This document shows, in pieces, positions 6,648 to 62,370 of a stretch of DNA of 64,000 nt (position 1 is its first letter; each line of letters starts with the position of its first letter). The position numbers and the translations under genes are program-made. Below the pieces are notes generated by a model. That model was given only the letters and a program-made list of their open reading frames with translations. It was not told the origin of the DNA and ran no database searches. The stretch comes from a filamentous cyanobacterium ESFC-1 (lineage in GTDB: Bacteria; Cyanobacteriota; Cyanobacteriia; Cyanobacteriales; Spirulinaceae): NCBI GenBank assembly GCA_000380225.1, contig KB904821.1:1602830-1666829 (forward strand), in the 5' to 3' direction.

Positions 6648-7259
6648 CTACTCGCGGGAAAGGCGACGACGTTTTTCCCGTTTTTGGTGATGATACCAGC
6701 GATACCAGGTTTGAGAACTCCGCAAACACAGCCACAGTAATAACATGGCGATTAATCCCCCTTGTTGAGGCGCGTTGAAGGCAAAAAAGACTAAGAAAAT
6801 ACAGAGGATGTCTTCGAGTAAAACAACTCCAAGGGGTAAGTGTCGCCAACGAAAAAACCAACCCACCTGCACTAACTTTAAAACAAACGCCAGCAAGCCG
6901 CCGATGAGTCCCATCAGCCACAAGGGTTCTACTTCCACTTGAGTCAAGGTCGGAGTAGCAATACCGATCAATGCCCCGACAAGAGGACTAAAAGCCAGTT
7001 CAATCAGTTGTAAGACTCTTTGACCGAGTAATTTTTTCGAGCCAAATAATTCAAATAACGACCAACTGGTGAGAATGCCAACGAGAACTTGAGGATGAAT
7101 CAGGGCCAGAATGGGGATATCTTGCCAGAGGCGATCGCCGTGTATTAAGCCAATCACCAATAGGGGTAGGGCGATTCTCATTCCAGCCGCCGCCGAAGCG
7201 GAAAGGGTTGCTAAGAGGCCAACAAACATAAAATCAATTTTCAGAACTAGCTCAAACAC
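6648..7259 (-). CDS. DUF4126 family membrane protein
   Basis: A 203-residue integral membrane protein with about five hydrophobic segments and a strongly basic C-terminal tail (HHQKREKRRRLSRE). The N-terminal part (LATLSASAAAGMRIALPLL) and the FSPLVGALIGIATPT segment match the DUF4126 family, whose function is unknown. The open frame starts with GTG at 7259. An ATG ten codons later (7229) is an equally possible start, because the hydrophobic segment begins there. It lies convergent to the lipoprotein gene, with about 90 bp between them. Confidence 0.8.
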   Translation of the reverse strand: MFELVLKIDFMFVGLLATLSASAAAGMRIALPLLVIGLIHGDRLWQDIPILALIHPQVLVGILTSWSLFELFGSKKLLGQRVLQLIELAFSPLVGALIGIATPTLTQVEVEPLWLMGLIGGLLAFVLKLVQVGWFFRWRHLPLGVVLLEDILCIFLVFFAFNAPQQGGLIAMLLLWLCLRSSQTWYRWYHHQKREKRRRLSRE

Positions 7260-32294: not shown

Positions 32295-32350
32295 AATGGG
32301 GCAAAATTATTAGGGGTCGAGAGAGAGGTCACCCTCTCCCCCTCCCATTC

Positions 32351-32385
32351 AGAACCGTACATGATAGTTTCCCATCATACGGCTC
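32351..32385 (-). ncRNA. group II intron domain V
   Basis: Minus-strand GAGCCGTATGATGGGAAACT followed by ATCATGTACGGTTCT. It has the AGC catalytic triad, a GAAA loop and the paired 3' strand, as in active group II introns. Confidence 0.9.
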
Positions 32386-32394
32386 CTGGTCAAA

Positions 32395-53670: not shown

Positions 53671-54134
53671 TTAATATCAAATCCGCAAAAACAACCCTTG
53701 TTTTAGAATCCCGGTTTCTTACTGGCTTACGCAGTCAAGTTAAAATTTCAAGCTAGAAACCGGGGTTCTTAATCCCCACTAATTAAATGAATTTAATATT
53801 AATTTGACCAAAGAGGACTACTACTTGAAATTTAGATTGTCGAGTATTTGAGTAGTATCAACGGTTTAAGTTTTGGGAATTGAGCCATCAAGCAATTAAG
53901 TCTTGAAAATTGGCAAGGAATAACCCCTAAAAAGTTGAAAATTTAGACCAAGTTTTTGGGTTTTAAAGAGAAACAACCAATAAGAAATCTAAAACTTGCT
54001 GTGCGATCGCGCTGTTTTTTGTGTACAGTGTACATGGGCAAGGGTTAAATCAAACCTTCCCTGCATTCAACCTCATTGTCTGGTCTGGCGAGAGGAAATT
54101 GAACCCCCCAATCTCGAACAACCCACGCAAGCTT
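53671..54134. other. 464-bp spacer with an AACCCCGG-flanked element
   Basis: The element lies at 53676-53775. The rest is AT-rich, with a HIP1 site near 54003. A reading frame running into the GntR gene from 54021 has no family match upstream of 54135. Confidence 0.5.
53676..53775. repeat. AACCCCGG-flanked element, core orientation 2
   Basis: TATCAAATCCGCAAAAACAA, then ATCCCGGTTTCT, a core (GGCTTACGCAGTCAAGTTAA...) and AGAAACCGGGGTT. The core is the reverse complement of that at 26366-26465 while the outer flank keeps its orientation. Confidence 0.6.
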
Positions 54135-54836
54135 ATGATGCTATCGTCCAAAGCTATTCAGCGCCGCAAATCCCTCCATCAACAAACTTATGATGTGCTG
54201 AAGAATAACATTTTAGCCGGACAGATTACCCCCGGTTCGCGCTTAGTCGAAACCCAACTGGCTGAACAGTTGCAAGTCAGTCGTACCCCGATTCGCGAGG
54301 CCATTCGTCAACTTCAGCGCGAGGAGTTGATTGAAGCCGACGAAAACGGCTGGTTGCGCGTTGCGAGTCTTTCGATTACCGAAGCCCGGCATTTGTACGA
54401 CTGTCGCATTGCTTTAGAAACCCTTGCGGTGACAGAGGCTTGCGTCCATACGACCCCCGCAAAGTTGCAAGAATTAAATCGCTGCATTGCTGAAGCCCAG
54501 AAATGGTTACCCGAAGATATTTCCCCCGAACAAAGTTTAAAACTATTAGAAATTGATTATCAATTCCACCTCGCGATCGCGCAAATTAGTGGTAATTCTT
54601 GTTTAGTCTCGCTGTTAGAGCAAGTTTTTGACAAAATGGCGTTATTGCGTACCAAAACGACCCGGAACAATCCCAGAGTGTTAGAGATTGGCTCAGAACA
54701 CAAAACCATATATGATGCGATCGCGACTGGAAAACCCGACATCGCGATCGCCGCTATCCAAAGCCATCTCAACGCGAGTAAAAAGCGGGTAATCCGCGAA
54801 CTCGAAGCGTTAACCTCTGTGGCAAACTATGAATAA
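54135..54836 (+). CDS. GntR family regulator (FadR/FCD type)
   Basis: About 233 residues. The winged helix (VLKNNILAGQITPGSRLVET then QLAEQLQVSRTPIREAIRQL) is typical GntR. The FCD effector domain has LYDCRIALETLAVTEACVH and DYQFHLAIAQISGNSCLVSL, with the Asp/His residues that bind metal or acids, and EHKTIYDAIATGK. The long upstream frame (from 54021) is not conserved; MMLSSKAIQRRKSL at 54135 is the likely start. Its last 8 bases overlap puuE, so the two form an operon. It probably regulates purine or allantoin use; the ligand is unknown. Confidence 0.9.
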   Translation: MMLSSKAIQRRKSLHQQTYDVLKNNILAGQITPGSRLVETQLAEQLQVSRTPIREAIRQLQREELIEADENGWLRVASLSITEARHLYDCRIALETLAVTEACVHTTPAKLQELNRCIAEAQKWLPEDISPEQSLKLLEIDYQFHLAIAQISGNSCLVSLLEQVFDKMALLRTKTTRNNPRVLEIGSEHKTIYDAIATGKPDIAIAAIQSHLNASKKRVIRELEALTSVANYE

Positions 54837-55740
54837 CCACCCTACTCGCGATCTCGTTGGCTACGGCGCAAACCCTCCCCATCCCCAATGGCCGAATAAT
54901 GCTCGGATTGCGGTGCAATTCGTCATCAACTACGAAGAAGGGGGCGAAAACTGCCCGTTATATGGCGACACTCACGCCGAAGCCTTTTTATCCGAAGTTG
55001 TTGGCGCAAAACCGATTGCTGGAGTCCGCCATATTAGCGTCGAATCGATTTATGAATATGGCAGTCGGGCAGGGTTTTGGCGTTTGAAACGCTTGTTTAC
55101 CCAACGAGGTATCCCCGTGACCGTTTATGGCGTTGCGATGGCATTACAGCGCAATCCGGAAGCCGTTTCTGCCATGTTAGAAGCGGACTGGGAAATCGCT
55201 AGTCACGGCTATCGCTGGATTGATTATACGTTTTTCCCGCCGAGTACGGAAAAAGAACACCTCGAAACCGCGATCGCCCTCCACACCGAAGCCACCGGAA
55301 GCCGTCCTCTCGGTTGGTACACGGGCAGAAATAGCGCCCAAACTCGCCAACTGGTGGTCGAAGAAGGGGGTTTTCTCTACGATGCGGATAGTTACGCCGA
55401 CGATCTACCCTATTGGGATTACAGTTGCGATCGCCCCCATCTCGTCATTCCCTACACCCTGGATAACAACGATATGCGCTTTCTGGTTGCCCAAGGCTTC
55501 AACAGTGGCGATCAGTTTTTTACCTATCTCAAAGATGCCTTTGATGTGCTTTATGAAGAAGGGGAAACCGCGCCAAAAATGATGAGCGTGGGTTTACATT
55601 GTCGCATATCCGGGCGACCCGGAAGGGCTGCGGCGTTAGCCCGTTTTCTCGATTATGTCCAAAGTCGCGATCGCGTGTGGCTGTGTCGTCGCATTGATAT
55701 CGCCCGTCATTGGCATCAACATCATCCACCTGATAATTAA
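54829..55740 (+). CDS. puuE: allantoinase PuuE (polysaccharide-deacetylase fold)
   Basis: A 303-residue protein of the metal-independent allantoinase branch of the polysaccharide deacetylase superfamily. It opens the ring of allantoin to allantoate in purine breakdown. Landmarks are RDLVGYGANPPHPQWPNNAR, VQFVINYEEGGENCPLYGD, EIASHGYRWIDYT and GWYTGRNSAQTRQL. YDADSYADDLPYW and LHCRISGRPGRAAAL close the active site. The start overlaps the GntR stop by eight bases. Other allantoin genes are not adjacent, so the next steps are elsewhere. Confidence 0.93.
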   Translation: MNNHPTRDLVGYGANPPHPQWPNNARIAVQFVINYEEGGENCPLYGDTHAEAFLSEVVGAKPIAGVRHISVESIYEYGSRAGFWRLKRLFTQRGIPVTVYGVAMALQRNPEAVSAMLEADWEIASHGYRWIDYTFFPPSTEKEHLETAIALHTEATGSRPLGWYTGRNSAQTRQLVVEEGGFLYDADSYADDLPYWDYSCDRPHLVIPYTLDNNDMRFLVAQGFNSGDQFFTYLKDAFDVLYEEGETAPKMMSVGLHCRISGRPGRAAALARFLDYVQSRDRVWLCRRIDIARHWHQHHPPDN

Positions 55741-59241: not shown

Positions 59242-60711
59242 TTACATTTCTTTGACCAAAGCAGGGTTGTGTTTATAAGTCATGCGAGACACCACCACAA
59301 ACACAATTAACCCCAGTAAAGGACAAATCAGCGTCGGAAAGCCGTCAAAATCTGCGGTGAAAATATTATTGGGAATATAAAGCAGGGTGTTATCCATGCC
59401 GAAAGTCGTCGGGATTAAGGCAAACGCGGTTAAACGGGTCACTGTTCCGGTAATAATACAAGCGATCGCGCCTTCGCGAGTAGCTTTCGGCCAATACAAT
59501 CCCCCGGCTAAGGGAACTAACAACCCTGCAAAACCGAGATCGAAAGCCAACACTAATAAAATCCCCGTTTGCGGGACGAGGACGGCAAAAATAACCCCCA
59601 AAGTGGTCATCACCGCCGCCATAATGCGGGTAATGAGAAGGAGGCGATCGCCCCCGGCATTATGGTCATCGTGGCGAATACCGATAATATTGTGGGCAAT
59701 GACCGACGATGTACCTAAAATCGCCCCGTCTGCGGTGGAAAGAGAAGCCGAGAGAATCGCCACAATCACCAGCAATCCCAAAGCCGGGGGAACAACTCCC
59801 CGCAGTAAAGCGAAAAACAACTGACCATCTGCGGCAACTCCGGCAGTTTCTAAAATGGTCGGTGTAGACAAAGCCAGAATCGAGAAAGGCACACCGATCA
59901 ACACCGTCCCTGCCGAACCAATAAAACAAGCCCTTTGTGCGGTTTCTGGGCTTTCGGCAGCGAAGACCCGCGCCATAAAGTCAATGGCGACAATATCTCC
60001 TAAACCGAGGGCTAACAAACTCCCCCAATTAATCGCCGCCCCTGCCGCCGGGTCAGTGAGTTGTTCAAACGCCAACGGCCCCATACCTTCAGGAATGGTA
60101 AAGCCGTAGTTAAACGCAATATAACCCATTAAACACAACGTCCCCAGAAACGCGATCGCGACTTGAATTGCATCGGTATAAGCCACCGCAAATAAACCCC
60201 CACTGGCGGTGTACATCAACACCACAATGGCAATCATCATCACCCCGGCAAGATAGGTTGTACCGAGGAAAGCTTCAAACAAAAAGCCCCCAGCGACTAA
60301 GTTTCCCGCCAGGAGAAAGGCAAAGCTTAATACCATAATCACTGAAGCCAGCCTTTCGGTAATCGGGCCGTACTTCACCCGATAAAAATCTGGTAAGGTA
60401 ATCAAACCCATGCGATTCATCGGTTTGGCAAAAAATAATGCCGTCATAAACAAGCACATTGCCAAGCCCAACGGTAAAGCCGCCCCTGCCCAAAAGCCAA
60501 ATTGAACTACCAATTCCGAGTTGCCCAAAGTGGCGTTAGAATCAACTGATTGGGCCATCAAGGTCGCCGCAGCTAAGGGTAATACCAAACCGCGGCCTGC
60601 GACTAGATAATTGACGCTATCGCCTTTAATCTGTTTGGCCGCCCAAATGCCAACCCCCAAGGTGGCAAATAGGAAGAGAATAATCCCCCAAAAATATATG
60701 GTATCAATCAT
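59242..60711 (-). CDS. sodium:solute symporter (SSS family) under guanidine-I riboswitch
   Basis: A 489-residue transporter with about 13 membrane helices. SSS features are NYLVAGRGLVLPLAAATLMA (TM1-2), GLITLPDFYRVKYGPITERL, VLMYTASGGLFAVAYTDAIQ and LSASLSTADGAILGTSSVIA with the sodium-site Ser-Thr. The family brings in sugars, amino acids, urea, carboxylates and other organic solutes with Na+. A guanidine-I aptamer sits in its leader, so the cargo may be guanidinium or a compound that rises with it. No other gene follows in the transcript before the terminator-like repeat. Substrate assignment is inference. Confidence 0.92.
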   Translation of the reverse strand: MIDTIYFWGIILFLFATLGVGIWAAKQIKGDSVNYLVAGRGLVLPLAAATLMAQSVDSNATLGNSELVVQFGFWAGAALPLGLAMCLFMTALFFAKPMNRMGLITLPDFYRVKYGPITERLASVIMVLSFAFLLAGNLVAGGFLFEAFLGTTYLAGVMMIAIVVLMYTASGGLFAVAYTDAIQVAIAFLGTLCLMGYIAFNYGFTIPEGMGPLAFEQLTDPAAGAAINWGSLLALGLGDIVAIDFMARVFAAESPETAQRACFIGSAGTVLIGVPFSILALSTPTILETAGVAADGQLFFALLRGVVPPALGLLVIVAILSASLSTADGAILGTSSVIAHNIIGIRHDDHNAGGDRLLLITRIMAAVMTTLGVIFAVLVPQTGILLVLAFDLGFAGLLVPLAGGLYWPKATREGAIACIITGTVTRLTAFALIPTTFGMDNTLLYIPNNIFTADFDGFPTLICPLLGLIVFVVVSRMTYKHNPALVKEM

Positions 60712-60779
60712 CGCGATCGCTCCTTTGATTGGTGTTCTCTGTTGAATGGGTCAGACTGCTTTTTGGGAATACAATTAAG

Positions 60780-60830
60780 AAAGCCCAAGGAGCAGACGAC
60801 TGTTACCATCGCCTGAATCTCCCGGGCTTT
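60780..60830 (-). terminator. expression-platform terminator of the guanidine-I riboswitch
   Basis: On the minus strand AAAGCCCGGGAG (60830 to 60819) can pair with CTCCTTGGGCTTT (60792 to 60780). It uses the 3' part of the aptamer, so ligand binding would prevent it. The following U-run is weak (CTTAATT). Confidence 0.7.
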
Positions 60831-60912
60831 TATCCCGCCGTGGAACTACTGTTGTAGTAGCCTGCTTCTCTCGGACCTGCCATTTAAATTTGTCTTTAAA
60901 TCGGAACCCTAG
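60815..60912 (-). promoter_or_regulatory. guanidine-I riboswitch (ykkC class I)
   Basis: The minus strand reads CTAGGGTTCCGA (60912 to 60901), a variable stem, GGTCCGAGAG, a second variable stem (CTACTACAACAGTAG), and then ACGGCGGGATAAAAGCCCGG then GAGATTC. These are the invariant blocks of the guanidine-I aptamer. It is about 100 bp upstream of the symporter start. Guanidine binding usually turns expression on. Confidence 0.96.
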
Positions 60913-61126
60913 AAGCTTTTATTAAAATCATTGAATAGTTGTTATTTAACAAGGTTTAGAATTTTAAACAGTAATGAAAATTACAAAAACTTTCCTAATT
61001 TGAGAAATATTTGTTATCATTCCTTGACATCAGGAATCGTTGCTGTAGCCCACTCGCAGCCAGAAGTATCATTTTCCTTCGTCGTTAGCAATAAATAGTT
61101 TACTCGCTTTTCTCACATAATTTTCG

Positions 61127-62293: not shown

Positions 62294-62370
62294 TGGTTGT
62301 TGGTTGTTGGTTGTTGGTTGTTGGTTATTGGTTATTGGTTGTTGGTTATTGGTTATTGGTTATTGGTATA
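62293..62370. repeat. heptamer tandem repeat array (TTGGTTG/TTGGTTA)
   Basis: About 11 units between the phytase-like gene and cpcT. The open frame through it (MRTNGCWLLVVGCW type) is not coding; the cpcT start is downstream. Confidence 0.85.

Follow-up and report, generated by a model that had tools for sequence, protein, structure and literature searches.

That guanidine can serve as a nitrogen source has been discovered only recently. In the portions of the literature available here, the guanidine importers named are ABC transporters and an APC permease (PMC12186494, PMC11410670), while guanidine efflux transporters are the products of many genes controlled by guanidine riboswitches (PMC12186494). 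The available parts of other reports describe gdmH loci with nickel chaperones or an ABC importer (PMC10119275, PMC8390497, PMC8400943, PMC12930504). The sll1077-1082 operon of Synechocystis comprises a Guanidine-I riboswitch, gdmH-ghaA-ghaB, and the ABC importer Sll1080-1082. The locus described here has the same aptamer class, its relatives carry the same enzyme and chaperone genes, and the importer is the last element in both arrangements; however, the importer here belongs to the SSS family rather than the ABC type, and it stands alone behind the aptamer. The Guanidine-I, APC permease, and guanidinase locus of Nitrospira inopinata similarly places a secondary-active importer directly behind the aptamer, but that importer belongs to the APC superfamily and is predicted to be a proton symporter, in contrast to the SSS protein here. 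The accessible text on Nitrospira inopinata places no nickel chaperone genes near its riboswitch (PMC11410670).

Here we analyze a 64,000-nucleotide stretch (referred to here as the window) of the 5.6 Mb genome of the filamentous cyanobacterium ESFC-1 (GCA_000380225.1, contig KB904821.1, positions 1,602,830-1,666,829 of the forward strand). Our data suggest that the SSS symporter encoded there is likely a guanidinium importer that replaces or supplements the ABC type in many cyanobacteria, and that a related module is present in haloarchaea. No SSS guanidine transporter is named in the literature searched, which was covered in part; this holds for the available parts of PMC12186494, PMC11410670, PMC10119275, PMC8390497, PMC8400943, PMC12930504, PMC10094980, PMC2211319, PMC4077062, PMC11399263, and PMC6031431.

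A Guanidine-I riboswitch precedes an SSS-family symporter gene

We found one match to the Guanidine-I family (RF00442) in the genome, at 60817..60923 on the minus strand of the window. It scores 86.3 bits (gathering score 63, E 4.9e-14; cmscan with Rfam 15 on the window), spans model positions 1-107 of 107, and its conserved blocks agree with the consensus line of the RF00442 alignment. The initial annotation, made from the letters alone, had proposed a guanidine-I riboswitch at 60780-60912, and the covariance search upholds this assignment. The three sequence blocks that it quoted occur letter-for-letter on the minus strand (60912-60902, 60877-60868, and 60841-60822). Its interval overlaps the aptamer, but it was given without a strand, misses 11 bases at the 5' end, and takes in the 3' arm of the terminator described below.

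Relatives of Guanidine-I, subtypes 2a and 2b, bind ppGpp and PRPP and are set apart by an extra P0 helix, according to the accessible part of the source (PMC6031431). The ends of the window aptamer (5' AAUAAAA and 3' GGGAGAU) have no complementarity apparent by eye and would form no extra P0 helix, as in ykkC subtype 1. Its gene context is that of guanidine metabolism, since orthologous symporters lie within gdmH-ghaA-ghaB clusters. By its sequence, the riboswitch is an ordinary member of Guanidine-I that would be expected to bind guanidine. The importance of the locus is the target of the riboswitch, not the riboswitch itself.

The target gene (59242..60711, minus strand) begins 105 nt beyond the aptamer, and AGGAG at 60720..60724 on the same strand, read from the sequence, is a probable ribosome-binding site. 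The gene encodes a 489-amino-acid Na+/solute symporter of the SSS family, as first annotated, with a score of 105.7 bits against PF00474 (gathering score 22.8); this match and the genomic context underlie its proposed role as a guanidinium importer. Approximately 3.5 kb from the symporter gene, a GntR/FCD regulator gene overlaps a gene for the allantoinase PuuE (54021-55740, plus strand; TIGR03212, 529.9 bits, over the cut-off), together forming a purine/ureide nitrogen module. We set aside a link between this module and the symporter, for which proximity alone speaks. The window also matches a domain of group II introns (RF00029, 60.3 bits) at 32309-32387 on the minus strand.

A terminator overlaps the aptamer and an NtcA-type site lies upstream

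We found that a Rho-independent terminator (60777..60831, minus strand) overlaps the 3' strand of the aptamer, an arrangement that would make it the expression platform of an ON switch. The segment AAAAGCCCGGGAG (60831-60819) holds the 3' strand of aptamer helix P3 and can pair with CTCC-TTGGGCTTT ending at 60780, in agreement with the earlier claim that a terminator competes with the aptamer 3' end. The 62-nt terminator segment folds at -27.7 kcal/mol, and its U-run is short (TTTCTT, i.e., UUUCUU, to 60777) and followed by A/U-rich sequence. A simple terminator scan with a loop limit of 3-8 bases did not report this terminator on the minus strand. A stem of 12 pairs is shared by the 16 leaders that were aligned (of 32); 4 of 192 pair cells are broken, and two pairs have changes on both sides.

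The motif GTAN8TAC, which we take to be the NtcA-type consensus, is matched exactly by GTAATTTTCATTAC (60971..60984, minus strand), a predicted nitrogen-control element 48 nt upstream of the aptamer. Since the motif occurs at chance level across the window (7 found versus 6.8 expected), this single site proves little and the evidence is its conservation. We found an NtcA-type site within 250 nt upstream of 26 of the 31 other symporter-linked aptamers, cluster heads included, while letter shuffles gave a mean of 2.2 and a maximum of 8; with the window counted, 27 of 32 leaders have such a site. A generic promoter scan found nothing over chance. Together, the terminator and the NtcA-type site predict an AND gate that would require both nitrogen shortage and the presence of guanidine. 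Such a gate fits the ammonium repression of the Synechocystis gdmH operon, as described in the available part of that report (PMC10094980).

Guanidine degradation genes are dispersed in the ESFC-1 genome

The initial annotation had noted that no guanidine hydrolase gene is adjacent to the symporter gene. This is true of the window, but the genome encodes one approximately 740 kb away (C1:919394-920551). The encoded GdmH scores 795 bits against the solved Synechocystis GdmH (7esr/7oi1) and is 82-93% identical to the gdmH places among the matches listed. Its translation contains HFDRHVDT and GTGWPEPGG, and the W of GTGW is Trp305 by counting along the alignment. Adjacent ghaA (HypA-type) and ghaB (HypB-type) genes lie at approximately C1:863.7-864.7 kb; the ghaB match contains one TAA, but the open reading frame is intact, ruling out a pseudogene. 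Urease is also encoded, and the gdmH, ghaAB, and urease genes are dispersed, away from the symporter gene. We found no Sll1080-like ABC protein in this genome at E ≤ 1e-60.

A permissive scan of 521 nt before the dispersed gdmH found no hidden aptamer, the one RF00442 match of the genome being elsewhere, and the 400 nt upstream of gdmH and of ghaA contain no NtcA-type site. With a single aptamer in the genome, the guanidine switch is confined to the transport step. Short tandem-like GGTTGTT/GGTTATT repeats lie in the window between phytase-like and cpeT-like genes (62294-62370, plus strand), and similar text is found upstream of the dispersed gdmH (L035, approximately 7100-7180).

Symporter orthologues and gdmH across cyanobacteria

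We searched 388 genomes of the same class, of which 206 contain RF00442 matches and 44 contain the symporter (E ≤ 1e-80). At E ≤ 1e-60, the GdmH of ESFC-1 matched in 162 genomes and an ABC binding protein in 178. The latter query is the SsuA-family binding protein of the gdmH-ghaA-ghaB-ABC cluster of L118, and it is called Sll1080-like because of its place in that cluster; the search extends to homologues of approximately 50% identity (i.e., putative guanidine importers). To call aptamers, we repeated the RF00442 search at higher sensitivity in the other 43 symporter genomes and applied cmscan to doubtful loci; the gene order of clusters was determined by tblastn on fetched flanks.

The aptamer is retained by orthologous symporters in two arrangements. 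Twenty-six of the 44 orthologues, the window included, lie directly behind a same-strand aptamer with gaps of up to approximately 340 nt, and six others (G378, G233, G193, G198, G024, and G159) end an aptamer-gdmH-ghaA-ghaB cluster, with all six aptamers over the threshold. Among the 26 direct aptamers, 24 are over the threshold while that of G359 reaches 35.1 bits and that of G236 29.1 bits, with none at gathering score on cmscan; these two may be decaying or altered in ligand specificity. The symporter loci with these weak aptamers, L096 (G359) and L098 (G236), retain an NtcA-type site together with a stem resembling a terminator. Two aptamers rose on rescanning, from 43.8 to 76.9 bits in G233 and from 45.9 to 70.5 bits for the second aptamer of G250, the low first scores being apparently due to long insertions.

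The remaining orthologues do not keep the aptamer. In G008 the symporter ends a gdmH-ghaA-ghaB cluster without an aptamer (1/44), and 11 of the 44 have no aptamer nearby (G133, G032, G113, G195, G222, G229, G152, G372, G235, G386, and G169), with broken or truncated symporter copies in G386 and G169. With cmscan, we found no RF00442 match at gathering score in the flanks of L067, L068, L073, L075, L076, L077, L079, L080, L088, L090, L106, and L107. The 450 nt upstream of ten of the twelve aptamer-less loci contain no aptamer block matches; among these ten, an NtcA-type site is present at L067 and L088.

Neighboring genes in the seven gdmH-ghaA-ghaB-symporter clusters are spaced 65-455 nt apart; the exception is G198, in which gdmH and ghaA lie approximately 1.6 kb apart with two further reading frames on the same strand between them. 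The genes of these clusters are presumably co-transcribed. The symporter and gdmH are divergent in G374, G223, and G250. Four loci, L086 (G223), L078 (G374), L094 (G250), and L105 (G321), contain Guanidine-I aptamers placed back to back on the two strands; one serves the symporter while its counterpart faces away (toward gdmH in three), possibly through a duplication of the switch. Overall, the position of the symporter in its clusters corresponds to that of the ABC importer in other gdmH clusters. Three further loci, L113, L114, and L117 (G161, G115, and G267), combine Guanidine-I with an ABC importer and have no gdmH in the stretch or among the genome matches; these genomes may use another degradation route.

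We found gdmH in 40 of the 44 symporter genomes compared with 122 of the 344 that lack the symporter (Fisher p 7e-13), and the 162 gdmH genomes comprise 19 with the symporter only, 107 with the ABC protein only, 21 with both, and 15 with neither (p 8.7e-6), although the genomes are phylogenetically related and these Fisher values overstate their independence. Our data indicate that gdmH genomes tend to carry either the symporter or the Sll1080-type ABC protein rather than both. No gdmH match was obtained in four symporter genomes, namely G188 and G344, which are 87% and 86% complete, and G321 and G347, which consist of 590 and 1050 contigs. Guanidinium uptake had been proposed for the symporter from the window alone, and the comparison across 388 cyanobacterial genomes supports this proposal through the aptamer, the gdmH clusters, and co-occurrence with gdmH.

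Related symporter loci in haloarchaea

A peptide-pattern scan of one genome per named species (84,980 species) gave 76 loci, of which 54 are cyanobacterial or cyanobacterium-like (several from genomes already among the 388), 16 are haloarchaeal with 54-60% identity, and 6 are distant. Nineteen of the 54 contain gdmH within the fetched stretch, and 8 of the 12 named loci that were scanned contain RF00442, each time ahead of gdmH in a gdmH-ghaAB-symporter order. One record, L147, is labelled as a Chloroflexaceae MAG (SM1_2_4) and carries a cyanobacterium-like gdmH-ghaAB-symporter locus in which the gdmH and ghaA matches are each split into two frames; the contig is possibly mis-binned.

All 16 haloarchaeal loci (L172, L174-L176, L178-L186, L188, L191, and L193) contain a ureohydrolase and an AbrB/PhoU-type regulator within approximately 4 kb of the symporter. 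Urease alpha lies inside 5 of these stretches and UrtA/UrtB inside 6 (named by NCBIfam in L172 and by similarity in the remaining loci), NikR and CbiM genes are next door in L172, and urease is encoded in all 14 of the 16 genomes that were searched. No RF00442 match was found in the 11 haloarchaeal loci scanned. We met no description of a symporter-ureohydrolase-AbrB/PhoU nitrogen module in the literature searched, which was available in part and was searched unspecifically for haloarchaea. In the symporter tree, the haloarchaeal proteins group with those of G152 and G372 (98/97), and the sample name of G372 is akin to those of two haloarchaeal MAGs (L175 and L184). These data suggest transfer of the symporter between cyanobacteria and haloarchaea in brine; since the tree is rooted for drawing only, a direction toward haloarchaea would have to be inferred.

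The haloarchaeal ureohydrolase of L172 has GdmH as its best solved match, with 200.8 bits versus 160.8 bits for guanidinobutyrase. However, Glu replaces the active-site Trp305 in 16 of 16 loci and the sequence reads HFDCHADT where GdmH has HFDRHVDT, so the substrate of the haloarchaeal enzyme may be another guanidino compound. It could be reasoned from this enzyme, which may act on a larger substrate, and from the diversity of substrates among SSS proteins, that the transported solute is a larger guanidino compound or a precursor (e.g., agmatine, guanidinobutyrate, or guanylurea) that yields guanidine inside the cell. We regard this as unlikely, given that the cyanobacterial partner is GdmH by sequence, with Trp at 42 of 42 GTGxPEPGG places in non-haloarchaeal loci (some loci represent the same genome twice) and HFDRHVDT also in 39, and that the symporter takes the place of the ABC importer. 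Furthermore, GdmH-type enzymes are guanidine-specific according to the accessible parts of two reports (PMC11410670, PMC12186494), which favors guanidinium itself as the likely substrate.

Symporter protein and candidate substrates

The symporter is a divergent member of its family, scoring 110.4 bits against TIGR00813 (sss superfamily) where the cut-off is 184. Eight NCBIfam models match it, each below its cut-off, so that no family model assigns a substrate. AlphaFold2, run with an alignment of 39 orthologues, gave a best model of five with pLDDT 80.9 and pTM 0.82 (pLDDT 63.6-72.7 for the other four), and the best 40 Foldseek rows for this model are all SSS-family structures. The closest solved fold is human CHT1 (SLC5A7; TM 0.80, E 4.8e-16, 24% identity), followed by SGLTs, NIS, and SiaT, and CHT1 is also the closest solved structure by sequence (79.2 bits). 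Like the proposed importer, CHT1 is an SSS protein with an organic cation as its substrate.

We found that Asp57 and Asp244 are present in 48 of 48 rows (40 cyanobacterial rows and 8 haloarchaeal rows drawn from the 16 loci) and absent from three distant SSS proteins and from CHT1, which has Gly and Ala at these positions. The same 48 rows all have Ser325/Thr326, the presumed Na2 site, where CHT1 has Ser and Ser; we take the Ser/Thr of the Na2 site to lie on the eighth core helix of SSS proteins. Asp57 presumably matches an essential Asp of PutP, and it may for this reason serve Na+ rather than the substrate.

Urea is the other candidate substrate that the pathway suggests, since guanidine hydrolysis produces it and the symporter could import urea or recapture leaked urea as a guanidine-induced part of the pathway. 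Plant DUR3 is an SSS transporter for urea, likewise a small nitrogenous substrate, and DUR3 structures are found among the Foldseek matches. However, they are weaker than CHT1 in fold (TM approximately 0.65, rank 34, 16-19% identity), and CHT1 but not DUR3 is among the sequence matches. The urea ABC transporter components UrtA/UrtB near the symporter in 6 of the 16 haloarchaeal loci would make a urea-importing symporter redundant, and two conserved acidic residues would suit a cation better than neutral urea. Urea import is therefore improbable in our judgment. That the symporter is a detoxifying guanidine exporter, as are many products of guanidine-riboswitch genes, is highly improbable given that SSS proteins are known as Na+-driven uptake systems, that none of the 48 rows departs from Ser325/Thr326 at the presumed Na2 site, and that the NtcA-type sites point to nitrogen scavenging.

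Proposed mechanism and implications

We consider it very likely, on sequence and comparative grounds, that the gene encodes a Na+-coupled guanidinium importer and is gated by guanidine, probably with activation by NtcA. When nitrogen is limiting, NtcA would initiate transcription through the site 48 nt upstream of the aptamer, as the presence and conservation of this site suggest. As long as guanidine is absent, the emerging transcript would fold the terminator and use up the aptamer 3' strand, while with guanidine the aptamer would keep this strand and allow read-through into the symporter gene, such that guanidine would promote its own uptake. Imported guanidinium would then be converted to urea and ammonium by the Ni-dependent GdmH, loaded by GhaA/GhaB, and the urea would pass to urease.

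In the symporter tree (51 rows), the window protein falls in a set of five (99/90) with three cluster-borne symporters and one aptamer-less symporter, and a set of six (97/87) adds that of G378; it stands apart from the other direct-aptamer proteins. This placement among mostly cluster-borne symporters suggests that its ancestor stood in an aptamer-gdmH-ghaA-ghaB-symporter cluster. The layout of the window would be what is left of such a cluster, its enzyme genes having been lost or moved while the transporter stayed under the switch.

A broader reading, to which we give somewhat less than even weight, is that these symporters form a third, Na+-driven family of guanidinium importers, after the ABC and APC types, that extends over two domains of life. 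Such a family may have arisen beside gdmH in cyanobacteria under the riboswitch and NtcA, and may have passed to halophilic archaea, where, in urease-containing genomes and with no riboswitch, its gene would neighbor those of a GdmH-like ureohydrolase and a PhoU-type regulator. In such proteins, Asp57 and Asp244 might clasp guanidinium.

A Na+-coupled importer would explain how cyanobacteria with gdmH and without the Sll1080-type ABC protein could use guanidine. Guanidinium import would also give a testable substrate to an unassigned clade of the SSS family, and the haloarchaeal loci point to the use of guanidine or guanidino compounds by hypersaline archaea. The ESFC-1 genome provides a clean test case, with the symporter gene as the sole gene behind a Guanidine-I switch.
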